From contig JAQUCT010000011.1 in the NCBI GenBank assembly GCA_028686075.1, forward strand, positions 1-38,136: DNA of 38,136 nucleotides, given 5' to 3'. The position numbers and the translations under genes are program-made. The notes beneath the pieces are model-generated. The model ran no database searches. It saw only the letters and a list, made by a program, of their open reading frames with translations, and was not told the origin of the DNA. Below, piece by piece: positions 14,291-32,127 of the stretch (within the stretch, counting starts at the first letter, position 1; every line of letters begins with the position of its first letter). The stretch is from Bacillota bacterium (GTDB lineage Bacteria; Bacillota; Clostridia; Ch29).

Positions 14291-14319
14291 TTGACAACAG
14301 CGCGGAACTGCTATATTAT
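14291..14319 (+). promoter_or_regulatory. Strong promoter of the importer operon
   Basis: TTGACA (14291-14296), a 17-nt spacer and TATTAT (14314-14319) make one of the best sigma-A-type promoters in the window. Transcription should start near 14326, just upstream of the riboswitch-like leader. Confidence 0.75.
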
Positions 14320-14336
14320 ACTGTTTACAAACAAAT

Positions 14337-14495
14337 ATATTGCCTCCGAGTTGTTCGTTTTAAGGCTCTATGCTATGAACGTTCAGCCGATGGGTGGTAA
14401 GGGAAACCGAACTGCCTTCCGCGTTTGAAAAGGAGTGCCAGGCCAATATAAAAATACCGGTACCTCTTCAAAACGGAGGCACCGGTTTTGTGTTT
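14337..14495 (+). promoter_or_regulatory. Riboswitch-like leader with intrinsic terminator
   Basis: ATATTGCC (14337-14344) pairs with GGC-CAATAT (14441-14449, one bulge), and TCC (14345-14347) can pair with GGA (14432-14434), closing a roughly 110-nt domain. Inside are GGCT/AGCC (14363-14366, 14384-14387) and GGTAAGG/CCTTCC pairings and a junction-like GGGAAACCGAACTGCC. Directly after comes a strong terminator, ACCGGTACCTC / GAGGCACCGGT (14456-14486), with a T-rich tail. The promoter-aptamer-terminator-lipoprotein-gene order is that of an OFF-type riboswitch. I could not assign a class: a cobalamin or molybdenum-cofactor aptamer is possible from context only. Confidence 0.6.
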
Positions 14496-14527: not shown

Positions 14528-15514
14528 ATGAAGAGGTTAGCGTTGCTGCTTATTACAGCGGCCCTTATGTTTAGTTTAATTGCTTGTGCCGGTACCGACC
14601 AACCGGCTTCCGGGGGTCCTTCCGGGGGAGAGGGCCAGCCAGTGGATAAAGATGCTCCGGCCCATCCGGCAGATGATATTGAGAGGGAACCTCTGTACAT
14701 ATTCCTTGACGGCCAAAGCTTGAATGAAGCCGGGTATGCCTATAGCGACATAAAGGAAGTAATGGCCGGTAGGAAGATAGACGGTACGTACTATTACGGT
14801 GCTACCTTGGCCGATATTACCGGTGAGGACCTCTCGGATGTTGAAGGTATCTTTCTTGAAGCGGTGGACGGTTATGTCTCCTACCTAACGGATGTAGACA
14901 GTCTGTACCTTGCCGCCTTTTCCGATAAGAACGATGAGTACCAATCGGTGGTATTGGATGACAGGCACGTATATGGTGGAGCCGCTGCCGGAAGCAGTTT
15001 CAACAAAGGAGTGGTCAATGTCTATCTGGTGTCGACACCCGCTAAGTTTAGCGTTGAAATCCAAAAGAACGGAGAAAAGATAGGGCAGCTTACCATGGAC
15101 GATTTTATGAGAAAAACCCAAGTTGGAGATGACAGGGTTGCCACCGGCATGTTTGACGGTTCCTTCATGTACCAGGGTGGTGCGGCTACCTATGAGGGGC
15201 GTTTTCTTGGCATTGATTACCAGACTATGCTTGCCAAGCTGGAAGGAATGGATATGGACCTGTCCGGCACCATAACAGAAGTAGAATACTACGGCACCAA
15301 CGGGCTTGGAAATGAGGGCAAGAATGGGGAGTATTCAACATCCGAGGGCGATTCAAAGTACTTTGGTTCGGTTGATTTCTTTTGTATGTTCGATGGGATG
15401 ACCTACAACAGTATAACAAGCGACTGTCCCATAGGTCTTACTGCTTTTATAAATGGCACCGGCGGCCGGTGGATGACATATAGTCTATCAGCCATTAATT
15501 TCATAATTGAATAA
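14528..15514 (+). CDS. Lipoprotein of unknown family (possible SUOX-fold-like domain)
   Basis: 328 aa from ATG 14528, preceded by AGGGGG. A signal peptide ends in the lipobox LIAC, with the lipidated Cys near residue 18, followed by a Gly/Pro/Ser-rich linker. The folded part contains YIFLDGQSL, ATLADITGEDLSDVEGIFLE and VDGYVSYL. The last two loosely recall the xxLADLL...v.l.s.DGY pattern of the oxidoreductase molybdopterin-binding (SUOX) fold; this is a weak inference. A second domain has TITEVEYYGTNGL. It is first in the importer operon, so it may deliver or sense the transported ligand. Confidence 0.75.
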   Translation: MKRLALLLITAALMFSLIACAGTDQPASGGPSGGEGQPVDKDAPAHPADDIEREPLYIFLDGQSLNEAGYAYSDIKEVMAGRKIDGTYYYGATLADITGEDLSDVEGIFLEAVDGYVSYLTDVDSLYLAAFSDKNDEYQSVVLDDRHVYGGAAAGSSFNKGVVNVYLVSTPAKFSVEIQKNGEKIGQLTMDDFMRKTQVGDDRVATGMFDGSFMYQGGAATYEGRFLGIDYQTMLAKLEGMDMDLSGTITEVEYYGTNGLGNEGKNGEYSTSEGDSKYFGSVDFFCMFDGMTYNSITSDCPIGLTAFINGTGGRWMTYSLSAINFIIE

Positions 15515-15553: not shown

Positions 15554-16699
15554 ATGATTAGGAAAACCACGTCTTTTGTTCTGATTGTACTGATAATTTT
15601 CAATTTTTGCGGCTGCGCTACGGTGTCGCCGGTCGGAGATGTTAAAGACACCAGGGAAATAACAGACCTTTCAGGTAGGAAAGTAGCAGTTCCGGCCAAC
15701 CCATCCCGCATTGCCGCCATGACCGGTCCGTCCTACGAGATGGTGTTTATGCTGGGTGGGCATGACCGGATTGCCATGACAAAAAGTGGGCATACCACAA
15801 ATTATCCGCTGGCACTGCTTACAAATCCCGACCTGGCAAACTACGAGGGGATAGGTGCAAACCCCAGCTCCTCTGTTAATATTGAAGACTACTTAAGCCG
15901 CGAAATCGATCTGGTTATCTATTACAATAACGGTAACGAGTTGAAAAAGTTTGAAGCGGTGGGCATTCCGTCCATTGTACTGACGCTGAACACCGGCCCC
16001 TTTAGTTCGGTGGAGGATGTTATGGCGCAAGACCTGGATGAGTATATAGATAGCTCCACCATAGCGGTTAAGGCACTAGCGGATGTTTTGGGCGGCGAGG
16101 CGGTGGAAGAAGCGGAAAAATGGGGTGAGTACTGCACCGAGAAGATAGAGATGCTTTACCAGCGTACCCACCACCTCACCGATGACCAGCGCAAGACGGT
16201 TTTTTGGGGTAACACCTGGGGTGAAAACATTCTTGCATCATATCCGCTGGATAACCGTTACTATGAAATATGGCTGTGCGGCGGCAAACTGGTGGGACCG
16301 GAGGCCGGTGCCGGAAACTTCCCTGAGGTTACAAAGGAACAGCTTTTTGATTGGGACCCCGATTTAATTCTGGTTGATAATCACGGGAACTATCCGGAAC
16401 TTGTGATAAAGAGCATGTATAAGGAGGGCTCACTGTGGGAGACTTTAAGCGCAGTTAAGAATAAGCAGCTGTACAGAATACCCGCCGGTGTTTTCTTCCT
16501 GGACAAGGGTACCACAACCACTCTTATGCTGCTTTGGCTGGCTGCTATAACCCAACCCGAGCTGTTCGAAGATATCGATATGATTGAGGAAATTAAGTAT
16601 TACTACAAAGAGTTTTATGAATACGATCTGACCGATGAACAGGCCCAGAGGGTGTTGGACGGCTGGTATGAAAGATTGGGGGATGAACCTGACCTATGA
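15554..16699 (+). CDS. ABC importer substrate-binding lipoprotein, FecB/BtuF type
   Basis: 381 aa from ATG 15554 (GGGAGAGG upstream). The signal peptide carries the lipobox FCGC. The mature protein begins ITDLSGRKVAVPANPSRIAA, the standard entry of periplasmic-binding proteins for siderophores, heme, cobalamin and, in the MolA/HI1472 branch, molybdate and tungstate. The two-lobed pattern continues with REIDLVIYYNNGN and WDPDLILVDNHGN. Distinctive features are many Tyr, Trp and Asn in the cleft-like segments (FWGNTWGENILASYPLDNRYY). The permease overlaps it by four bases. The substrate is undetermined; the setting beside molybdenum genes makes an oxyanion or cofactor plausible. Confidence 0.88.
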   Translation: MIRKTTSFVLIVLIIFNFCGCATVSPVGDVKDTREITDLSGRKVAVPANPSRIAAMTGPSYEMVFMLGGHDRIAMTKSGHTTNYPLALLTNPDLANYEGIGANPSSSVNIEDYLSREIDLVIYYNNGNELKKFEAVGIPSIVLTLNTGPFSSVEDVMAQDLDEYIDSSTIAVKALADVLGGEAVEEAEKWGEYCTEKIEMLYQRTHHLTDDQRKTVFWGNTWGENILASYPLDNRYYEIWLCGGKLVGPEAGAGNFPEVTKEQLFDWDPDLILVDNHGNYPELVIKSMYKEGSLWETLSAVKNKQLYRIPAGVFFLDKGTTTTLMLLWLAAITQPELFEDIDMIEEIKYYYKEFYEYDLTDEQAQRVLDGWYERLGDEPDL

Positions 16700-17763
16700 T
16701 GAATACCCCTGCAGAGAGAATACCGGAAGCAGGTATAGAGTATATCGAAAAAAAGCCATCTAAACTCAAATGGGCATTGATGGCAGCTTTCCCGATATTT
16801 CTTTTTACCATATCCCTATTCCTGGGGCGATACTCGGTACCTCCAAACCAGGTAATATGCGTACTGGGACAAAGACTGTTTAGTTTGCCCATTGAAACCT
16901 TTTGGACGGATACAGTTGAAACGGTTGTAATAAGGGTGCGCCTTCCCCGGGCAATAATGGCGGCACTGGTCGGGGCCGGTCTTTCAATGTCGGGGGCTTC
17001 CTTCCAGGGGATGTTCCAGAACCCTTTGGTCAGCCCCTTTATCCTGGGTGTCTCTGCCGGTGCAAGTTTTGGTGCCGCCACCGGATTGATACTGGAGCTT
17101 CCTGCATTAGGAATACAGGCACTGTCATTCCTGTTCGGCTTGCTGGCGGTGGTCATTACCTATTTGACGGCGCATATATACAAGGTGACGCCCATTTTGA
17201 TGCTGGTGCTTTCGGGCATGGTTGTATCAACCTTTTTCCAGGCTATGTTGTCATTAATCAAATTTATAGCCGATGACGAGGAAAAACTGCCTGCCATAAC
17301 CTTCTGGCTGATGGGAAGTCTGGGCAGCGTTAGTCTGAAGGACTTAGGGATCGCGGCGATACCAATTATAGTATCTATTGCCTGTCTTTATATGGTGCGG
17401 TGGAAACTAAACGTACTTTCGATGGGAGAACGGGAATCAAGAGCTTTGGGTGTAAACAACGAGCTGTTTAAAGCAATTATTATTGTCTGTACCACCGTCA
17501 TATCTTCAACCGCCGTTGCCTTTTGCGGAATAATAGGCTGGGTAGGGCAGGTAATACCGCATTTTTGCCGTATGATTGTCGGACCGGACCATAAGGTGCT
17601 TATTCCGGCAACAATGATGGTTGGCGCAGGGTATCTCATAATGATTGATAACCTCTGTAGATTGCTTACCGCAACAGAGATTCCGCTTGGTATCCTAACG
17701 GCGGTTATAGGTGCGCCGGTATTTGCCTATCTGCTGCGTAAGACCAGAGGAGGGTGGAACTGA
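16696..17763 (+). CDS. ABC importer permease, FecCD/BtuC family
   Basis: 355 aa, normal for a FecCD permease, with about ten membrane helices. Family motifs are RVRLPRAIMAALVGAGLSMS, GASFQGMFQNPLVSPFILGV and, near the end, FCGIIGWVGQVIPHFCRMIVG, which includes the conserved G-x-I-x-F-V-G-L-x-x-P-H segment that contacts the ATPase. It overlaps the binding-protein stop (ATGA) and is followed by the ATPase gene with a one-base overlap. It should form a homodimeric type II importer. Confidence 0.93.
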   Translation: MMNTPAERIPEAGIEYIEKKPSKLKWALMAAFPIFLFTISLFLGRYSVPPNQVICVLGQRLFSLPIETFWTDTVETVVIRVRLPRAIMAALVGAGLSMSGASFQGMFQNPLVSPFILGVSAGASFGAATGLILELPALGIQALSFLFGLLAVVITYLTAHIYKVTPILMLVLSGMVVSTFFQAMLSLIKFIADDEEKLPAITFWLMGSLGSVSLKDLGIAAIPIIVSIACLYMVRWKLNVLSMGERESRALGVNNELFKAIIIVCTTVISSTAVAFCGIIGWVGQVIPHFCRMIVGPDHKVLIPATMMVGAGYLIMIDNLCRLLTATEIPLGILTAVIGAPVFAYLLRKTRGGWN

Positions 17764-18551
17764 TGAGCGTAAAGCTGTCCATAAAAGACGCCAGCTTCGG
17801 TTACAACGACAGCCAATCGGTATGGGAGAATATAAACATAGACGTCCGGGAGGGGGAATGCCTGTGCCTTTTAGGACCCAACGGCTGCGGCAAGACTACG
17901 CTGCTAAACTGTATAAACGGAACATACGCCTTAAAGGAGGGTTCCGTTTTTGTTAATAATAAAAACATAAAAGAGATGTCCATAATACAACTGGCACAAA
18001 CCATAGGCATAGTTTTTCAGGAGCACAGCGCACCCTTTCCATACTCATCGCTGGAAGTGGTGCGGATGGGCCGGACGCCTCACCTGGGACTGTTTGAGAC
18101 ACCGTCGGAGGAGGATACAAGGCTGGCATTAAGCATTATGGAGGAGTTAGGCATTGCCCACCTTGCGGGCAAAAGCTATACCCATATTTCCGGTGGCGAG
18201 CGGCAGCTTGTGCTAATTGCCCGCACCCTATGCCAGCAGCCGGAGATTATACTATTTGACGAACCCACCTCGCACCTGGACTTCAAAAACCAGGCCATGG
18301 TGTTGCGTACTATCAAAAACCTTTCTCAAAAAGGAATGACCATTGTTATGACAAGTCATTTTCCAAACCATGTATGGGATATAGGCACCCGGGTCTCAAT
18401 GTTGGGCTTTGGAGGTATGGTGGTTCAAGGTCCTGTGGAAGAGGTGATGACCGAGAAAAACCTTAGCAAGACCTATGGAGTGGAAACTAAAATATACGAT
18501 GCAAAATCGGGTATAGGTCATATACGTTTTTGTGCACCAAATTTAGGATAA
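17763..18551 (+). CDS. ABC importer ATPase, FecE/BtuD type
   Basis: 262 aa from ATG 17763, after GAGGAGGG; an upstream in-frame GTG is less well placed. Walker A GPNGCGKTT is at 38-46, the signature ISGGERQ at 142-148, Walker B IILFDEP at 162-168 and the switch His in MTSHFPNHVWD. The length and order fit the ATPase of iron-chelate, cobalamin or molybdate (MolC) importers. It forms the cytoplasmic motor for the permease just upstream. Confidence 0.94.
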   Translation: MSVKLSIKDASFGYNDSQSVWENINIDVREGECLCLLGPNGCGKTTLLNCINGTYALKEGSVFVNNKNIKEMSIIQLAQTIGIVFQEHSAPFPYSSLEVVRMGRTPHLGLFETPSEEDTRLALSIMEELGIAHLAGKSYTHISGGERQLVLIARTLCQQPEIILFDEPTSHLDFKNQAMVLRTIKNLSQKGMTIVMTSHFPNHVWDIGTRVSMLGFGGMVVQGPVEEVMTEKNLSKTYGVETKIYDAKSGIGHIRFCAPNLG

Positions 18552-18571: not shown

Positions 18572-19366
18572 ATGAAAAAGTTAGGTTTAGCGTTATTACT
18601 TATTTCCATGATGGTTGTACTGGCCGCCTGCAGCAGCGGCGAAGCACCGCAGGCACCGGAAGAGCCTGCGGGTACAGAACAGAGGGAAGAAGCAGCCGGT
18701 GAGAACGCCGCCGGGGAAAAGGGCAAGGAATCAGCACCTACCTATAAAGAAACAATGGTCCCCTTTGACCAGTTGGTTCCGGCAGGGCGTATTGTTATTC
18801 TTCAAAACACACTAAACTATTCCCGGGAAGGTTTCTACAATGCGGATAACAAGCCGGCTGCAGAGGATATAGAGTATAATGGCGATACCGTGGCCGCCTA
18901 TCCCATTACCTATGCACTGGACTTCCTCACAAAGGGCAGTAACGGTGACCTTATCGTAACAAACAATGACGGCAGAACCCAGACAATCTCCGCCCAGGAC
19001 TTTGCCGGGCTTTATGCGATAATCGACTTTACATCGGATGCGTCCCCGGCGCTTTACAATCCGGAAAGCGGTACCGAAATAACTGACTTCTTGTTTGCCA
19101 CCACGACGGAAGGGGAAGCCATATATTCAGTGGTTAGCGGCTCCATTTATAATGCTGCCGAGGTTATTGCCAATGTGGGCTGGGACACAGGTGCAACCTA
19201 CAGGTATATGGCCACCGATAAATTCTATATTCCGGTAGGTCCGGATGAGAGAGCAACAGGCGAGATAAGAGGGACCCTGTCCGGTGCTGTTAACGGCTCC
19301 TTCCCCGACTTGAAGATAGCCGGCGGAAAAATTAACGATGTGATTTATATAGAGGCTATGGAATAA
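18572..19366 (+). CDS. Second lipoprotein of the importer operon, unknown family
   Basis: 264 aa from ATG 18572 (GGAGGG upstream). The lipobox is LAAC, then a Glu/Ala-rich linker about 45 residues long. The folded part has VPAGRIVILQNTLNYSREGF, DTVAAYPITYALDFLTKGSN and a beta-rich C-terminus (GTLSGAVNGSFPDLKIAGG). It does not look like a periplasmic-binding protein. Its layout (lipobox, acidic linker, domain with ALDFL...DGR.Q.I) is reminiscent of the first lipoprotein of the operon, which might share a fold. Position after the ATPase argues for an accessory role in capture of the imported ligand. Confidence 0.75.
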   Translation: MKKLGLALLLISMMVVLAACSSGEAPQAPEEPAGTEQREEAAGENAAGEKGKESAPTYKETMVPFDQLVPAGRIVILQNTLNYSREGFYNADNKPAAEDIEYNGDTVAAYPITYALDFLTKGSNGDLIVTNNDGRTQTISAQDFAGLYAIIDFTSDASPALYNPESGTEITDFLFATTTEGEAIYSVVSGSIYNAAEVIANVGWDTGATYRYMATDKFYIPVGPDERATGEIRGTLSGAVNGSFPDLKIAGGKINDVIYIEAME

Positions 19367-19404: not shown

Positions 19405-20169
19405 ATGATTATGGAAAAAGTACTGGCTGCAGCTAAGCCCTTTCTGGAGGGCAGGACGGTGTCCGACCTGGTTATTGGCCTCTCTTTGATAGGCTGCCAA
19501 CTGGATAATGGCAATATAGGTGTATCCTATGTACTGCGCGAGGAGCTGCCCCATGGCTGTTCGGCCTTTCCCTTTGCAAAGAAAGTGATTGGAAGGCCCG
19601 CATCGGATATTGCAAAGCTAAGCATTTCTACCGATGATTGCCTGCAGCGGTCGGTTGCCGCTTCGGTACTGGCGGCCGCCGCCTGCTCGCAGCAGCTGCC
19701 GGAGGATAATGAGGATAAGCCCTTCGGTATAGAGTTTAGGCCGGAGGATACTGTGTGCATGGTGGGACTTATAAGCCCCCTGGCGGTGCAGATATCTAAA
19801 GAAGTTAAGGAATTTATTGTTTTCGACAAGGGAATGGGCCACTGTAAAAAAGATTTTGAGGTGCATCCCATTGAGAAGCAGCCGGAACTTATACCAACCT
19901 GTGATGTGGTTATTCTAAGCGGCACCACCACAGTAAATGGCAGTATTGACGGCCTGCTGGAGTTGTGTGAAAGGGCCCGTGAGGTAATTATGGTGGGACC
20001 ATCCACCCCGATGTTTCCTGAGGGCTGGCGAGGCAGCCCTATGACGGTGCTGGCCGGTTCATGTTGGGACAGGGAGCACAAGGATGAGCTGTTCAAGTCC
20101 ATTTCCCTCGCCGGCGGCATAAAACAGATCAGTAAATATATGCTCAAGAAAGCGGTAGCAGTAAAGTGA
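19405..20169 (+). CDS. DUF4213/DUF364 (putative heavy-metal chelation) protein
   Basis: 254 aa from ATG 19405, six bases after AAGGAGGAA; an upstream ATG at 19369 lacks such a site. The N-terminal part (VSDLVIGLSLIGCQLDNGNI) matches the DUF4213 enolase-like region and the C-terminal part a Rossmann-like DUF364 domain (VCMVGLISPLAVQISKEVKE, DVVILSGTTTVNGSIDGLLE, VGPSTPMFPE). The family is cytoplasmic and often sits beside FecBCD-type importers; its biochemistry is not established. It closes the operon and is followed by a terminator. It may receive or process the imported metal species. Confidence 0.8.
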   Translation: MIMEKVLAAAKPFLEGRTVSDLVIGLSLIGCQLDNGNIGVSYVLREELPHGCSAFPFAKKVIGRPASDIAKLSISTDDCLQRSVAASVLAAAACSQQLPEDNEDKPFGIEFRPEDTVCMVGLISPLAVQISKEVKEFIVFDKGMGHCKKDFEVHPIEKQPELIPTCDVVILSGTTTVNGSIDGLLELCERAREVIMVGPSTPMFPEGWRGSPMTVLAGSCWDREHKDELFKSISLAGGIKQISKYMLKKAVAVK

Positions 20170-20212: not shown

Positions 20213-20384
20213 TTTTTATAACATCTTTCTTCCGGTCCTATCTATATAGCCCCGTTTACTGTCCATCAAATAACAGTCCCTTATGTATATATTTCACCTA
20301 ACAGGTCAAGGTATTTTGTGGATAATTACTAAAGGTTTAACGGAAGGGATGTGGAAATAAAACGTAAACCAAGGGGTGGAGATT
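20213..20384 (+). promoter_or_regulatory. Upstream region of the ModE-like gene; possible ModE half-sites
   Basis: 172 bases hold CTATCTATATAG (20238-20249) and TATGTATATATT (20282-20293). Both recall the TATAT-containing half-sites of E. coli ModE operators, but spacing and orientation are not convincing. I found no clear -35/-10 pair. GGGGTGGAG precedes the ATG at 20385. Confidence 0.25.
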
Positions 20385-20726
20385 ATGCCGGGGCTGAAGC
20401 TGAAATACAAGATTTGGATTGATAACGGGGGAAAAGCCTTTGGAGACGGGCCCATGGAGATACTTACCCGTATTGAGACAACCGGTTCGCTAAAAAAAGC
20501 AGCGGAGGAAATGGGTATGTCCTATTCCCAGGCGTGGCATCTTATAAAATCCCTGGAAAAGAGGCTGGGGTTCAAACTGCTTGAAAGAAGGGTGGGGGGC
20601 AGAGCCGGGGGGGGCTCTCGGATTACCGAAGATGCCGTGCTTCTTATGGAAAGGTTTGCTGCCTTCAGGGACAGGACGGACAGGATGATGCAGGAATATT
20701 TTGAAGAATACTTCGGGGAGAAGTAG
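20385..20726 (+). CDS. Single-domain ModE-like (LysR-type HTH) regulator
   Basis: 113 aa from ATG 20385. It matches the N-terminal DNA-binding domain of ModE: LKYKIWIDNGGKAFGDGP, then ILTRIETTGSLKKAAEEMGM and SYSQAWHLIKSLEKRLGFKL (winged helix), then GGRAGGGSRIT. The C-terminal MOP domains that bind molybdate in E. coli ModE are absent, so ligand sensing must occur otherwise. Such short ModE homologues usually accompany molybdate or tungstate uptake or Moco genes. Here it follows the importer operon and heads a three-gene unit. Confidence 0.88.
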   Translation: MPGLKLKYKIWIDNGGKAFGDGPMEILTRIETTGSLKKAAEEMGMSYSQAWHLIKSLEKRLGFKLLERRVGGRAGGGSRITEDAVLLMERFAAFRDRTDRMMQEYFEEYFGEK

Positions 20727-22505: not shown

Positions 22506-22663
22506 AAAAGGAGATATCTGTCAAGGTAAACGGTGAGGTTCGTACAGGCTACAAACCGACTATTGACACCATAGAGGAGGCTGCCATGGGAGGTGAATGG
22601 AAAAAGAACGGTGATATTTGTATTTACACATCTGCCCAGTCACTCTTTGCAGTCAGGAATTGA
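22502..22663 (+). pseudogene. Fusion of Fe-S subunit N-terminus to a molybdenum-subunit fragment
   Basis: The frame starts ATGA-overlapping the previous one. MKKEISVKVNGEVR is the typical start of a 2Fe-2S xanthine dehydrogenase small subunit, but the Cys clusters are missing. After TIDTIEEAA it switches to MGGEWKKNGDICIYTSAQS and LFAVRN, which belongs to the molybdenum-binding large subunit (the STQSPF-type motif), then stops. One deletion seems to have joined the two genes. Confidence 0.65.
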
Positions 22664-22953
22664 TGAGCATATCCTTCAAGATATCCCATTTCAGGATAAA
22701 GGTTGTGGTGCCCTATGTGGGCGGAGGCTTCGGGGGCAAGGCCGGGATTAATCTTGAACCGCTGGTGGCCTGTCTGTCCAAAAAGGCCGGAGGCAGACCG
22801 GTTAAAATTGTTGCGTCCCGTGAAGAGGAGTTTAACACTATACCGTCACGTCAGGGCCTGCCCGCCCTGGACTGGACTTACGGTGCTCACGGGGTGGATA
22901 TTATAGACCTGCCTATAACTCCCGAGAGGATATGGAGAGCTATCAAAAAATGA
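22664..22953 (+). pseudogene. Xanthine dehydrogenase-type molybdenum subunit, collapsed remnant
   Basis: In another frame, KVVVPYVGGGFGGKAGINLE and PLVACLSKKAGGRPVKIVAS, REEEF are the conserved Moco-contacting core of XdhA-type subunits (about 750-800 aa). After TIPSRQGL it jumps to DIIDLPITPERIWRAIKK, the usual extreme C-terminus of these proteins. So the gene has lost several hundred codons internally and is out of frame with its own upstream fragment at 22580-22663. Confidence 0.75.
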
Positions 22954-24325: not shown

Positions 24326-24361
24326 AGGTAGGCACACTAAAAAGCTGTGGGGTGGCGCAGT

Positions 24362-25126
24362 ATGCTGGAGGAAGCGGTAGGCCTGGGCGCAAAGGATATG
24401 ATAGCACTGGTAGGTGCAGGGGGCAAGACAACCCTGGCCTTTTCCCTAGCTGCGGAATTGTCGCGCAAGGGGCATTCATTACTGGTAACCACCACTACTA
24501 AAATATATTACCCCCGGGAAAGGTTTGTAAGGGTTTATACTGAGGACAAAGGGGAGTTCACTCGGAGTTTTATTAAAAGGGTATTAAAGGAAGGCGTCCC
24601 GGTATTGGGCAAAGGTCTTTTGCCGCAGGGAAAGGTAAAAGGCCTGGAGCCCAACCGGGTGGATGATATTTTTTCGTGGGGACCGATTGAATACATTATT
24701 GTTGAGGCGGACGGTGCGGCAAGAAAACCCATAAAGCTTCCGGCGGAGCATGAGCCGGTAATACCAAAAAAGAGTACCATCGTACTGGGATTTATAGGTA
24801 TGGACGCCATTGGCAGGCCCATGACCGAAGCCAATTTCCACAGGGTTGATATTGCATGCCGTAAACTGGGGTATTATCACGGACAGACCATTGACGAAGA
24901 CATGGCGGTGTCCATTGTACTATGGAGTGAAGGCCTGTTTAAGGGGGTACCGGAGGGGGCTAAAAAGGTACTGGTACTCAATAAGGCCGACGGTGTCAGG
25001 GAAAAAACCAGTGCGAGAAAAATTGCGGCCAGGGTATTGGGAAAAAAGGGAAAGGATGATATAATACCGGATAAAATAATTGTTTCGTCCCTAGTTACCG
25101 GCGGCAGGGTAGAGGTGTTGGTATGA
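24362..25126 (+). CDS. yqeC: Selenium-dependent hydroxylase accessory protein YqeC
   Basis: 254 aa from ATG 24362 (GGGGTGG upstream); a GTG at 24347 is the alternative. It has the P-loop-like IALVGAGGKTTLAFSLAAEL near the N-terminus, VTTTTKIYYP, YIIVEADGAARKPIKLPAEH and PVIPKKSTIVLGFIGMDAIG, the diagnostic pattern of the YqeC family. YqeC proteins occur with selenium-dependent molybdenum hydroxylases (xanthine dehydrogenase and relatives) and are thought to help make the selenium-containing cofactor. It overlaps the next gene by four bases. Confidence 0.9.
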   Translation: MLEEAVGLGAKDMIALVGAGGKTTLAFSLAAELSRKGHSLLVTTTTKIYYPRERFVRVYTEDKGEFTRSFIKRVLKEGVPVLGKGLLPQGKVKGLEPNRVDDIFSWGPIEYIIVEADGAARKPIKLPAEHEPVIPKKSTIVLGFIGMDAIGRPMTEANFHRVDIACRKLGYYHGQTIDEDMAVSIVLWSEGLFKGVPEGAKKVLVLNKADGVREKTSARKIAARVLGKKGKDDIIPDKIIVSSLVTGGRVEVLV

Positions 25127-25683
25127 ACATATATGGAATTATCCTGGCGGCGGGGGAGGCTAAAAGAGCATCGGGTTATAAACTTTCTAGGCCTGTCATG
25201 GGAAAGCCCATGCTTGAATGGGTGGCGGACAGGGCAGCCGGGTCGAATCTAAAGGGAAATATAATGGTAACCGGAAAGGAAAGAGGATTTGCAGATGGAG
25301 TCGCGGCCAAATACCGGATGGACTGTGTTTATAACCCGGATTACAAAATGGGTATGAGTTCTTCTCTAAAAAAGGGTGTGGGCAGTCTGCCGGAAGACGC
25401 CGACGGGTTTGCGGTACTTCTGGGGGATATGCCCTTTATTAGAATTGAGACTATAAACCGTCTTATTGATGAATTTAACAGGAACCCGTCAACTGTGGTA
25501 CCTGCTTTTAAGGGCAGGAGGGGGCATCCTCCCATTTTCCCGGTAACCTTTATAAAGGATATATTAAGACTAACGGGAGATGAGGGCGCAAGAAGTATAA
25601 TAGAGGAGCGCACCGGGGGAGTAACCTATCTCAACACGGAGGACAGAGGGGTTGTAAGGGATATCGATTGTTTTCCGTGGTAA
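25123..25683 (+). CDS. MocA-like molybdenum cofactor nucleotidyltransferase
   Basis: 186 aa. The N-terminal IILAAGEAKRASGYKLSRPV is a variant of the LAAGxSxRMGxxK nucleotide-binding loop, then GKPMLEW; the metal-binding AVLLGDMPFI and PAFKGRRGHPPIF follow. MocA adds CMP to molybdopterin for the xanthine dehydrogenase family. The loop has Ala-Ser in place of the usual Met-Gly, so the exact nucleotide is uncertain. It overlaps yqeC (ATGA). Confidence 0.85.
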   Translation: MNIYGIILAAGEAKRASGYKLSRPVMGKPMLEWVADRAAGSNLKGNIMVTGKERGFADGVAAKYRMDCVYNPDYKMGMSSSLKKGVGSLPEDADGFAVLLGDMPFIRIETINRLIDEFNRNPSTVVPAFKGRRGHPPIFPVTFIKDILRLTGDEGARSIIEERTGGVTYLNTEDRGVVRDIDCFPW

Positions 25684-25715
25684 CCCGAAATAATGCCGTG
25701 GGGGAGGAAACTTAA

Positions 25716-26525
25716 GTGATCATTTACAGCCACATAGTAAAAGCCCAGCAGCAAAAGAGGGACTTTGCAGTGGTTACAATAGTAAAGGCCCAGGGGTCCA
25801 CGCCAAGGGGAGAGGACGCCAAGATGCTTGTATACAGTAACGGAGAAAGACTTGGTACTATTGGAGGCGGAGAACTGGAGGCCAGTGCCGTATGCGATGC
25901 AAGGACGGCGATTGCAAACAACAGGTCGGCCCTTGTTGAGTACAGGTTGGACGACCGGGATGAGGAAGGCTTGGGAATGAAATGCGGAGGGGATGTGCAG
26001 GTCTTTATTGAGGTACACAGGTCCAGGCCAAGGCTTATTATAGCGGGGGCCGGACATGTTGGAAAAGCACTGTGCGATGCGGCTTGTCTGCTTGACTTTG
26101 AAATAGTTGTTATAGACGACAGGGTGGAATGGGCCAACAGGGAGAGGTTTACAGGGGCGGCGGAGGTGCTGGCCTGCGAAAGCATATCCAAAATGCTTAA
26201 GGATATGGAGTTGACGGAGGAAAGCTTTGTAGTTATTGCTACAAGGGGGCATATGCACGATAAGGAAGCACTGGCGGCGGTGCTAGGCAAAAAGGTTAAG
26301 TATATAGGAATGATTGGCAGCTACCAGAAGGTAAAGCAGATATTTACGCAACTGCGGGAAGAAGGTTTTAAAAAGGAAGAACTCGAAAGGGTGTACTCGC
26401 CTGTAGGGCTGGACATAGGCGGGGAAAAGCCCGAGGAGATTGCGATAAGCATATTGGCAGAAATGCAGAAGGTCAGGTATTCGAGGGGCGGGGGTTCCCT
26501 GTCTACCGGAAAGGATCGCCTATGA
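25716..26525 (+). CDS. XdhC/CoxI-family Moco insertion and sulfuration protein
   Basis: 269 aa from GTG 25716, with GGGGGAGG nine bases upstream. The XdhC_CoxI domain has VTIVKAQGSTPRGEDAKMLV and GTIGGGELEA; the C-terminal Rossmann domain has LIIAGAGHVGKALCDAACLL, VIATRGHMHDKEAL, YIGMIGSYQKVK and SPVGLDIGGEKPEEIAISIL. XdhC binds the molybdenum cofactor and promotes its sulfuration and insertion into xanthine dehydrogenase. Here the client enzyme just upstream is a pseudogene, so it must serve another hydroxylase or be a relic still intact. It overlaps yqeB by four bases. Confidence 0.92.
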   Translation: MIIYSHIVKAQQQKRDFAVVTIVKAQGSTPRGEDAKMLVYSNGERLGTIGGGELEASAVCDARTAIANNRSALVEYRLDDRDEEGLGMKCGGDVQVFIEVHRSRPRLIIAGAGHVGKALCDAACLLDFEIVVIDDRVEWANRERFTGAAEVLACESISKMLKDMELTEESFVVIATRGHMHDKEALAAVLGKKVKYIGMIGSYQKVKQIFTQLREEGFKKEELERVYSPVGLDIGGEKPEEIAISILAEMQKVRYSRGGGSLSTGKDRL

Positions 26526-27331
26526 ATACGGGCGGAATAAGGGTATTGGTAAGGGGCGCCGGGGATATGGCCACCGGGATAGGGCATAGGCTTTTTAAAA
26601 GCGGTTTTAGGGTGTTTATGACCGAGATTGAAAGGCCCGCCTGCATAAGGCGCAGGGTTGCGTTCTCGGAGGCGGTATACGAGGGTAGCACTGAGGTGGA
26701 AGGAGTGACCTCCGTATTGGCGCACAGTCCCCGGGAGGCGGAGGAAATGAGCGGCCGGGGGTACATACCTGTACTGATAGACCCCCTGGCCAGGGCGGCA
26801 CAAGCCCTCAAACCGGATGCCGTAGTGGATGTCATAATGGCAAAGAAAAACCTGGGGACCGGCATGGATATGGCACCTGTTGTAATAGGGGTGGGGCCTG
26901 GATTTACGGCCGGCGTCGACTGCCATGCGGTGGTGGAAACCATGAGAGGTCACAACCTGGGAAGGGTTATTTATCAGGGCGAGGCAAGTCGGAATACGGG
27001 TGTCCCGGGCGAGGTGGCCGGTTTTGCCAGGGAAAGGGTTGTATATACTCCTGGGAACGGTATAATAAAGTCCGTTTGCGAAATAGGCACCCGGGTTAAA
27101 GCGGGCCAACTGATAGCCGTGGTGGGAGAAAACCGGATAACAGCACCCATTGATGGAGTAGTTAGGGGGCTGATAAGGGACGGATTTGCCGTTACAAAAG
27201 GAATGAAGATTGGTGATGTGGACCCAAGGGGCATTATAGATAACTGTTATACCATATCCGACAAGGCCAGAGCGGTGGGCGGCGGCGTGCTGGAATCACT
27301 GATGCACTGCTTGAATATTGCTGGCCTGTAG
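26522..27331 (+). CDS. yqeB: Selenium-dependent molybdenum hydroxylase protein YqeB (EF2563 family)
   Basis: 269 aa. The N-terminus VLVRGAGDMATGIGHRLFKS, the middle VDVIMAKKNLGTGMDMAPVV and GVGPGFTAGVDCHAVVET, and HNLGRVIYQGEASRNTGVPG are all diagnostic of the EF2563/YqeB family. A C-terminal biotinyl-like module follows (IGTRVKAGQLIAVVG, ITAPIDGVVRGLI). The family is a marker of selenium as a labile cofactor of molybdenum hydroxylases; the exact step is unknown. It is the last of four linked maturation genes. Confidence 0.92.
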   Translation: MNTGGIRVLVRGAGDMATGIGHRLFKSGFRVFMTEIERPACIRRRVAFSEAVYEGSTEVEGVTSVLAHSPREAEEMSGRGYIPVLIDPLARAAQALKPDAVVDVIMAKKNLGTGMDMAPVVIGVGPGFTAGVDCHAVVETMRGHNLGRVIYQGEASRNTGVPGEVAGFARERVVYTPGNGIIKSVCEIGTRVKAGQLIAVVGENRITAPIDGVVRGLIRDGFAVTKGMKIGDVDPRGIIDNCYTISDKARAVGGGVLESLMHCLNIAGL

Positions 27332-29179: not shown

Positions 29180-30100
29180 GTGTTTATTGAGGCAGAGTGG
29201 ATATCCTCGGATTTGACAGCGGTACTTACCGAAAAAGCTGTACAGGGCAGTGTGCATTCCATTTTCAGGGAAGTACTCAATATACGATTGCAGGACAACA
29301 GAATAGTATCAGTTACAGCCAGTGGTATACCCCATTTACCGTCCGCAGTTAAACTGGGGGCAGACGCTCCGGATGACTTCTGTCATATAAGAACAGACAT
29401 TGGGAACGGCGTAACCGTTTCAAAGGGAAGGGTTGATTTTGAAGACGGTTCACTTTGTATAGGAACAAAAAAGGCAAAGGTCTGGGATGCAGGTCTTCAG
29501 TTTGTAAAGCCTTCGGTATCGAAAGAAACATTGACAGCAAATCTGGAGCGGATAAAAACACTGGTTTTAGAACAGGGAAACAGGGACGGACTGTCATCCA
29601 TACTGCATACCTGCAGTTCAAACAGGCTGGTGAGGTTTGTAATGCCCTCCATCGACCGGCTGGCAAAGGCAATAAGACTGCAGAATCGGGACCTTGTTAG
29701 TGAGGCCGCAGTCGGCCTACTGGGGTTCGGGCCGGGGCTTACCCCGTCCGCCGACGATTTTTTATTAGGGATAATGGCGTCTCTGTACTATATAGGCGAC
29801 TATTACGACTTTGATTTGTCTCGCACAGCAGCCATTGCCGGGGCGTTGGTGCGTGACCTGGGGGGCAGAACCACTTTGGTGAGCGAGACAATGCTGAAAA
29901 ACGGGGCACTGGGATACTTTAACCAGCCTTTACGTGCCCTGATGCAGGTGCTGACGTCAAAGGAGGCCGTGAAGGACGAGTGTCTCTCGGTTATAGGTAT
30001 AGGCGGCTGTTCCGGGAGCGACTGCCTTGCCGGGGTTGTGTTCGGTGCAAGGCTTACAGCCGGAATAAACGAGGAAAAGGAGGCAGGGGAATGCCTGTAA
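29180..30100 (+). CDS. allH: DUF2877 protein, AllH (YlbF) homologue
   Basis: 306 aa from GTG 29180 with AAGGTGAT upstream. The DUF2877 family pattern is clear in SEAAVGLLGFGPGLTPSADD and FLLGIMASL, with IGIGGCSGSDCLAGVVFGAR near the C-terminus. In E. coli the homologue (ylbF, renamed allH) is one of three proteins required for oxamate carbamoyltransferase, the step that makes carbamoyl phosphate from oxalurate in anaerobic allantoin breakdown. The stop lies inside the start of the fdrA remnant. The other required subunit genes follow, but fdrA is broken. Confidence 0.85.
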   Translation: MFIEAEWISSDLTAVLTEKAVQGSVHSIFREVLNIRLQDNRIVSVTASGIPHLPSAVKLGADAPDDFCHIRTDIGNGVTVSKGRVDFEDGSLCIGTKKAKVWDAGLQFVKPSVSKETLTANLERIKTLVLEQGNRDGLSSILHTCSSNRLVRFVMPSIDRLAKAIRLQNRDLVSEAAVGLLGFGPGLTPSADDFLLGIMASLYYIGDYYDFDLSRTAAIAGALVRDLGGRTTLVSETMLKNGALGYFNQPLRALMQVLTSKEAVKDECLSVIGIGGCSGSDCLAGVVFGARLTAGINEEKEAGECL

Positions 30101-30671
30101 AGGTTTCGGTAAAGAAGAATTCTTATTATGATTCGGTAACACTTATGCTGATAACAAAGGAAGTCAAAAATACAGAGGGTGTCAGGCAGGTTCTGACAGC
30201 AATGGGGACCGAACTGAACAAAGAATTAGCAAAGGACCTGGGGTTGGTGGACGATAGGCTAAAAGATTTGACGCCCAACGACTTTTTTATCGTCACCGAT
30301 GTAGAAAGAGAGGAGGCCTTTGACGAGGTAACCAAAACGGTGCAACAACTGCTGAACCGTAAAAGGGTTGACGTTTCCGACTACCGGCCGCCGACCCGGA
30401 AACTGCGGTTATTCTTATGGATTTTGTACTGGGATATGGAGCAAATACGGACCCTGCCGGGGAAATGGTGACGTTTATTGAGCAGGCAAGGGAGGCCGCC
30501 CGGGAAAAGGGCAGGTACCTTTGTATAGTAGGCAGCGTCTGCGGCACCGAACAAGACCCTCAGAACCGTACAGAGCAGGAGGCGAGGCTCCGAAAAGCCG
30601 GGGTAATAGTGATGCCCTCCAATGCCCGGGCGGTAAAGCTGGCAGCTGAAATAACAGGCAGATTGGAGTGA
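30091..30671 (+). pseudogene. FdrA (AllF) with large internal deletion and frameshift
   Basis: From ATG 30091 the frame has the FdrA N-terminus: VKVSVKKNSYYDSVTLMLIT, GVRQVLTAMGTELNKELAKD, DFFIVTD. At about 30400 the match jumps, one frame away, to VILMDFVLGYGANTDPAGEM, CIVGSVCGTEQDPQNR and GVIVMPSNARAVKLAAEI. That is the C-terminal part of the succinyl-CoA-synthetase-like region. FdrA is normally about 500-550 aa; roughly 300 codons of the middle, with the CoA-ligase-type active region, are missing. The upstream frame runs on to a stop at 30471. The fragment order is preserved, so this is a deletion, not a rearrangement. Confidence 0.8.
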
Positions 30672-30676
30672 TATGC

Positions 30677-30850
30677 ATGTCAAATATCAATAGGCTCTTC
30701 AAAAACCAATTGAAGGTAATAAATATTGGCCTTGAAGCATTCTATGGCGATTTAAAAAAACAGAAGGTGGAAGTAATCCATGTTGACTGGAGGCCTCCGG
30801 CGATGGGCAACAAAAAGATGGTCTCCCTTCTTAATAGATTAAAATCTTAA
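30677..30850 (+). CDS. Small FdrA/YlbE-associated protein
   Basis: 57 aa from ATG 30677. LFKNQLKVINIGLEAFYGDL and VEVIHVDWRPPAMGNKKMVS form a conserved segment that in other allFGH-type loci occurs as a terminal extension of FdrA or YlbE proteins, here as a separate frame ending LLNRLKS. I recall this motif from the family but cannot verify its exact placement. It lies between the fdrA remnant and allG with short spacers, so it is probably translated. Confidence 0.65.
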   Translation: MSNINRLFKNQLKVINIGLEAFYGDLKKQKVEVIHVDWRPPAMGNKKMVSLLNRLKS

Positions 30851-30864
30851 AGGAGTTGGTTTGA

Positions 30865-32127
30865 ATGGTACAGGAAAGAATTGAGGCTGCCAACAAAGAA
30901 ACGGTAAGAATAATGATGGAAGGTCAGCCTACGCTTATTGGTGTGGGTACGGCGCTGAAGGATATACCCGGCATGACTCCAAAGACTTTGCTTCACGCAG
31001 GCCCTCCCATAACATGGGATAAGATGTCCGGCCCCTTGAAGGGAGCGATAATAGGAGCACTTATATATGAGGGGCTTGCGAAAAACGAGGACAAGGCAGC
31101 GGAGTTGGCGGTGTCCGGCGAGATAGAATTCGCACCCTGTCATCACCATAGTTCCGTAGGACCTATGGCGGGGGTAACAAGCCCTTCCATGCCGGTATGG
31201 ATAATTGAGAACAAGGCTTACGGCAACAGAGCGTACTGTACTCTTAACGAAGGGCTGGGGAAGGTGCTCAGGTACGGGGCTTACAGCAGTGAAGTTATAG
31301 AGATGCTGAGGTGGATGGAAGGGGTCCTCGGCCCGGTGATTGGGGAGACGTTAAGGCTGCACGGCCCTATAGACTTAAAGAGCATGATAGCCCAGGCCCT
31401 TCAAATGGGGGATGAAGGACACAATCGAAACAGGGCCGGGACATCGCTGCTCATCAGGGAATTGGCTCCGTATATGCTGCAAACGAAATTTGATACCGTG
31501 GATAAGATTGACGTATTGAATTTCATAAACAGCAACGATCACTTTTTCCTCAACCTGACCATGCCGGCGTGTAAGGCGACTCTTGACCCGGCCGGCGGAA
31601 TAGAATACAGCACCATTGTAACAACTATGGCAAGAAACGGGACCGAATTCGGGATTAGGGTGAGCGGTTTGGGGGGCAGATGGTTTACAGGACCTTCAGG
31701 AATAGTAAAGGGTTTGCTGTTCCCCGGGTTTACCGATAAAGATGCAAACCCTGATATAGGAGACAGTGTAATAACCGAAACCACGGGAATTGGCGGTTTT
31801 GCAATGGCGGCTGCTCCTGTCATAGTACAGTTCGTGGGTGGCAGTGCTGGCGATGCGCTTAACTTTACCCAGAGGATGTACGAAATAACCGAAGCCGAGA
31901 ATACCGTCTACAGGATTCCGGCCTTAAACTTCAGGGGTACGCCTACCGGTATAGACATAAGGAAGGTGGTTGAAACAGGTATACTGCCCAATATAAATAC
32001 CGGTATTGCTCATAAAGATGCTGGTGTGGGGCAGATAGGTGCCGGTTTGGTGGAGCCTCCGGCCAAGTGCTTTGAGGATGCGCTGGAGGCCTTTGTTGAG
32101 GACCTGGAGATAAAAGGACAGCTGTAG
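30865..32127 (+). CDS. allG: DUF1116 protein, AllG (YlbE) homologue
   Basis: 420 aa from ATG 30865 with AAAGGAG upstream. Characteristic DUF1116 segments are TLIGVGTALKDIPGMTPKTL, HAGPPITWDKMSGPLKGAI, CHHHSSVGPMAGVTSPSMPV and DEGHNRNRAGTSLL. The E. coli homologue (ylbE, renamed allG) is needed with FdrA and YlbF for oxamate carbamoyltransferase. The reading frame is full length and uninterrupted. With FdrA destroyed next door, either another FdrA copy exists elsewhere or this is a not-yet-decayed relic. Confidence 0.88.
   Translation: MVQERIEAANKETVRIMMEGQPTLIGVGTALKDIPGMTPKTLLHAGPPITWDKMSGPLKGAIIGALIYEGLAKNEDKAAELAVSGEIEFAPCHHHSSVGPMAGVTSPSMPVWIIENKAYGNRAYCTLNEGLGKVLRYGAYSSEVIEMLRWMEGVLGPVIGETLRLHGPIDLKSMIAQALQMGDEGHNRNRAGTSLLIRELAPYMLQTKFDTVDKIDVLNFINSNDHFFLNLTMPACKATLDPAGGIEYSTIVTTMARNGTEFGIRVSGLGGRWFTGPSGIVKGLLFPGFTDKDANPDIGDSVITETTGIGGFAMAAAPVIVQFVGGSAGDALNFTQRMYEITEAENTVYRIPALNFRGTPTGIDIRKVVETGILPNINTGIAHKDAGVGQIGAGLVEPPAKCFEDALEAFVEDLEIKGQL

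Follow-up and report, generated by a model that had tools for sequence, protein, structure and literature searches.

A P3-less Moco/Tuco riboswitch that probably switches off transcription of a MolBC-A-type importer operon for molybdate or tungstate

The Moco RNA motif (RF01055) combines the stems P1, P2 with a receptor, P4 with a GAAA loop and P5 around a conserved junction, and is found with terminator-type expression platforms in a molybdenum/tungsten transport gene context. A further stem, P3, is optional: about two thirds of the founding RNAs have it, and it is missing in 58 of the 176 Moco RNAs described (Regulski et al. 2008, PMC2408646). RNAs without P3 were nearly confined to organisms that have Tuco genes and have been proposed as sensors of the tungsten cofactor, a correlative rule (PMC2408646). 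On the transport side, MolBC-A (HI1470-HI1472) imports molybdate with low affinity, and its MolA component binds tungstate as well (PMC4031551); DUF364 proteins have been linked with genes for metal transport and perhaps with pterin chemistry (PMC2954201).

Here we describe a leader in a 38,136-nt contig stretch of a Bacillota bacterium (the window, analysed as a whole) that shares all of the above features of the motif except P3. It is very probably a P3-less RF01055 riboswitch by which the cofactor turns off transcription of a MolBC-A-type importer operon for molybdate or tungstate. We derived by computation the family membership and covariation of the RNA, the promoter and terminator, the complementarity and the type of the importer.

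Identity of the leader RNA

A sequence-only reading had placed a riboswitch-like attenuator of unidentified class at this locus, named a Moco-type RNA as one possibility and asked for a covariance-model search against Rfam. In that search, RF01055 was the sole Rfam 15 match at its gathering threshold (36 bits) in the whole window, at 14332-14452 (60.8 bits; E 2.3e-12, computed over the whole window; model positions 1-135 of 135). The class is thus a known one, and the Moco-type guess was right. The elements of the aptamer are:

14332-14452, + strand: aptamer of the Moco/Tuco riboswitch RF01055, P3-less form (cmscan, full model)
14337-14347, + strand: P1 5' strand AUAUUGCCUCC, with the core GCCUCC at 14342-14347 (RF01055 alignment; partner 14432-14449)
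14350-14387, + strand: P2 with a tetraloop-receptor-like UAAGG...UAUG segment (RF01055 alignment; covariation in 9 of 11 pairs)
14392-14417, + strand: P4, capped by a GAAA tetraloop at 14403-14406 (RF01055 alignment; pairing in 93% of cells, changes on both sides in 7 of 11 pairs)
14418-14428, + strand: P5 (UC/GA in the window RNA, CC/GG in most relatives)
14432-14449, + strand: P1 3' strand, GGAGUGC core plus CAAUAU base (RF01055 alignment)

The multistem junction of the family (CUCCGAG ... GCCGAU.GGG ... GCCU.CC ... GGAAAGGAG) is present, the window RNA having GAAAAGGAG, as are the GNRA tetraloop on P4 and the receptor feature of P2. P3 is absent, its 15 positions being deleted in the RF01055 alignment; this marks a known variant of the family and does not exclude membership. 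The window RNA also differs from the motif in alignment column 64, which is one base short, and in having UC/GA rather than CC/GG in P5. Judged by sequence and structure alignment, the leader RNA is a Moco/Tuco riboswitch of the P3-less form, that is, a member of a known family and not a new kind of riboswitch. A new class, or a riboswitch for a metal ion or oxyanion, has next to no probability: the sequence-only reading had matched the leader to none of the TPP, FMN, SAM, lysine and purine aptamers, and what identifies an RF01055 RNA is its junction, not one long motif, but the full-length match, with the junction, the GAAA loop and P1, P2, P4 and P5 all present, rules such candidates out. 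No second Rfam family exceeded its threshold, and other riboswitch classes stayed below theirs in a permissive search as well.

RF01055 matches above threshold numbered six in the source genome and 29 across six genomes of its family. Adding the RNA found at a distant orthologous operon (L032) gave a 30-sequence alignment with 17 invariant columns, in which every RNA lacks P3. With the structure taken from the Rfam alignment, 82% of the cells were paired, versus 69% in shuffles and 36-51% when partners were slid. Both sides had changed in 23 of the 33 pairs, and in 155 cells as against 62 in shuffles, so that the covariation on which the earlier reading had made its proposal depend was found. 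A family-specific covariance model (R1), which has the window RNA among its own sequences, scores that RNA at 82.1 bits.

The gene context is that of RF01055: the window RNA precedes a MolBC-A-like importer and its relatives precede molybdenum or tungsten genes. Behind the family RNAs lie genes for tup/mod-type transporters (TupA-like, ModA/WtpA-like), for MoaA and MoeA, for NuoE-like, ModE-like and xanthine-dehydrogenase-type proteins, and for aldehyde ferredoxin oxidoreductases (AOR) of the tungsten type. The nearest solved relative of the TupA-like protein is a tungstate-binding protein.

Five RNAs (L024, L025, L026, L027 and L028), matching RF01055 at 39-50 bits, differ from the other 25 relatives in having GUAA/GCAA-type loops instead of GAAA, no P2 receptor, and GCAAAGGAG in place of GGAAAGGAG. 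By these sequence features they are a coherent receptor-less subtype; AOR (tungsten-enzyme) genes lie behind four of them, and a PAS-like regulator ORF behind L028. Four GCAA Moco RNAs without the receptor were noted in the founding study (Regulski et al. 2008, PMC2408646).

Leader layout and predicted switching

Three further elements complete the leader:

14291-14319, + strand: sigma-70-type promoter TTGACA-17-TATTAT, 11 of 12 consensus positions matched
14424-14473, + strand: predicted antiterminator hairpin, P1 3' side plus terminator 5' arm (from the ligand-free minimum-energy fold and the duplex)
14456-14495, + strand: intrinsic terminator, stem 14456-14486 and T-rich tail 14487-14495 (hairpin -15.7 kcal/mol)

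The near-consensus promoter and the strong terminator right after the closing stem, both seen in the earlier reading, were thus recovered. Two promoter-like sites occur in the leader region against a shuffled mean of 0.4 and, from the promoter position, transcription is predicted to start just before the aptamer, upstream of 14332. The proposed closing stem of ATATTGCC (14337-14344) with GGCCAATAT (14441-14449) does belong to the base of P1; its register, however, is that of the RF01055 family: AUAUU (14337-14341) pairs with AAUAU (14445-14449), followed by GC/GC, and atop this base the conserved CUCC (14344-14347) pairs with GGAG (14432-14435). Directly 3' of the terminator hairpin lies TTTGTGTTT. 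The importer operon begins downstream at 14528, and the succession of promoter, RF01055 aptamer, terminator and operon supports the view of a ligand-controlled attenuator ahead of the importer. The 164-nt leader is more stable than its dinucleotide shuffles (z -2.6).

In the ligand-free minimum-energy fold of the full leader, P1 and the terminator are both broken (-52.5 kcal/mol, versus -47.3 kcal/mol for aptamer plus terminator, energies that leave out ligand, tertiary contacts and kinetics). The P1 3' side (14424-14442) pairs there with the 5' arm of the terminator, in a duplex of -11.6 kcal/mol that 2% of shuffled arms equal, and the P1 5' strand pairs with the terminator 3' arm. When the leader is folded at slightly shorter lengths, a near-equal fold lacks this second pairing, which makes the pairing of the P1 3' side the firmer prediction. 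Since both sides of P1 can pair with terminator arms, a ligand-stabilised P1 should free the terminator, as in an OFF switch, and a ligand stabilising P1 by several kcal/mol would favour termination.

We infer ligand binding and the OFF direction as follows. The molybdenum or tungsten cofactor would bind the emerging aptamer and hold P1 together; the terminator would then form and the importer would not be made. Without ligand, P1 would open: its 3' side would take up the 5' arm of the terminator, and the terminator's 3' arm CGGAGGCA (14474-14481) would pair with the P1 5' strand UGCCUCCG (14341-14348). With both alternative pairings formed, transcription would continue into the importer operon. 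Such OFF logic is of the usual kind and would fit an uptake operon. The Moco RNA of the E. coli moaABCDE operon belongs to the same aptamer family, likewise uses P1 as the regulatory switch and is predicted to mediate repression by the cofactor; P3 is present there and the ribosome-binding site is sequestered within P1, whereas the window RNA uses a transcription terminator.

Several relatives keep the terminator in their ligand-free lowest-energy folds, so that a default-off state is conceivable, and with it an ON switch in which the ligand-stabilised Moco aptamer prevents termination. We consider this improbable for the window leader, as its free fold is antiterminated, P1 formation frees the terminator arms, and the end product is expected to repress an uptake operon, in line with the proposal made for the moa RNA of E. 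coli (PMC2408646). The complementarity between P1 and terminator that would underlie the OFF switch is clearly above shuffles in only some of 25 leaders (L003, L004, L015, L016 and L017) and weak or absent in the others; in the distant orthologue L032, folding found no such antiterminator.

The importer operon and its relatives

The genes behind the leader are:

14528-15511, + strand: lipoprotein of no known family, first operon gene (no Pfam or NCBIfam match; orthologues 84, 68 and 54% identical)
15554-16696, + strand: substrate-binding protein, Peripla_BP_2, MolA-like (Pfam E 4e-12; PDB 4ovk E 1e-26; MolA HI_1472, 3psa, E 5e-15)
16696-17760, + strand: FecCD-type permease, nearest solved relative HI1471 (MolB) (2nq2 E 4e-72, next 9e-44)
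17754-18548, + strand: ABC ATPase (Pfam ABC_tran)
18575-19363, + strand: second lipoprotein of no known family (no Pfam or NCBIfam match)
19405-20166, + strand: DUF4213/DUF364 protein, putative metal chelation (Pfam E 2e-34; 3npg, 3l5o)
20382-20723, + strand: protein with a ModE-type DNA-binding domain, after the importer genes (TIGR00637 E 1e-18, below the curated cut-off)

The permease has MolB as its best solved match and the binding protein matches MolA, although 4ovk, a periplasmic binding protein listed without a substrate, outscores MolA HI_1472. The importer is thus nearest to Haemophilus MolB/MolA, and its predicted substrate is molybdate or tungstate. Like MolBC-A, it is a type II importer of the FecCD type; unlike MolBC-A, it is accompanied by two family-less lipoproteins and a DUF364 protein. 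The riboswitch assigns a ligand class to what would otherwise be a generic importer operon of the 'iron-siderophore' type whose lipoproteins lack annotation.

At least four genomes conserve the two lipoproteins along with the importer. Their AlphaFold models are of low confidence (pLDDT 43.5 and 41.7), and profile comparison gave no sound link to the Oxidored_molyb lipoproteins of a second MolB-type operon (42% probability at best, across a C-terminal stretch).

In that second operon, also in the source genome, the MolB-like permease is 52% identical to that of the window, and another RF01055 RNA stands 3.7 kb ahead of it; the lipoproteins of this operon carry the Oxidored_molyb domain and an FmdE-like gene is present. 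The arrangement, RNA included, recurs in another genus. The distant metagenome-assembled genome with the orthologous operon L032 carries an RF01055 leader too. The leader thus recurs at two MolB-type operons but is not universal. In the relative L031, no RF01055 was found within 1.5 kb upstream of the operon; in a sister species (G002:C166, L050), whose operon proteins are 84-90% identical to those of the window, none was found in the 135 nt (1-135) between the contig end and the first gene. The expectation of a conserved leader upstream of orthologous operons therefore held for L032, and the RNA stands at paralogous MolB-like operons as well, but it failed for L031 and the sister species. These two cases indicate that the switch is not fixed to the window-type operon, and the sister species points to gain, loss or movement of the leader inside a single genus.

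The RF01055-led loci L045 (G000:C7:46400-52782) and L046 each hold an FMN_bind lipoprotein, Oxidored_molyb lipoproteins, DUF364, an FmdE-like gene, a MolB-like permease and an ATPase, with a MolA-like binding protein in addition in L046. This gene set looks like a conserved molybdenum/tungsten uptake module.

A recurrent set of MolB, DUF364 and lipoprotein genes is thereby tied to molybdenum/tungsten cofactor homeostasis. The repeated coupling of BtuC-type MolB-like permeases with cofactor riboswitches, DUF364 proteins and lipoproteins, and the molybdopterin-binding sulfite-oxidase-type domain in the lipoproteins of the second MolB-type operon, allow speculation that what the importer takes up is not the bare oxyanion but pterin- or chelator-bound molybdenum or tungsten, or else the cofactor itself; we regard this as unlikely.

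Metal of the cofactor and neighbouring genes

The metal of the cofactor, too, we infer. The same riboswitch and mechanism might respond specifically to the tungsten cofactor (Tuco), with the operon serving tungsten supply. P3 is absent from the window RNA and all its relatives, P3-less RNAs are almost confined to organisms with Tuco genes (PMC2408646), and the source genome holds a TupA-like gene and several AOR genes. However, the P3-less RNAs of the family precede both tungsten-type (TupA, AOR) and molybdenum-type (ModA/WtpA-like, xanthine-dehydrogenase-type) genes, and the P3 rule is itself only correlative. Tuco specificity is consequently a tentative reading, plausible though somewhat doubtful. 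As far as gene contexts tell, P3 absence does not separate molybdenum from tungsten genes in the family examined: either its RNAs all respond to Tuco, or to either cofactor, or the two cofactors are not told apart by P3. A family in which all Moco RNAs lack P3 and yet precede genes of both types is a useful test of the P3/Tuco rule.

Farther downstream in the window, on the strand of the operon, 24347-27331 (YqeC, MocA-like, XdhC and YqeB) is a selenium-dependent molybdenum hydroxylase maturation cluster. At 22618-22953, a fragment of 111 aa that contains a molybdopterin cofactor-binding domain (MoCoBD_1) is probably a remnant of a xanthine-dehydrogenase-type gene. AllH and AllG, subunits of oxamate carbamoyltransferase, are encoded at 29180-32127, and their position beside the molybdenum hydroxylase maturation genes suggests purine/allantoin breakdown.
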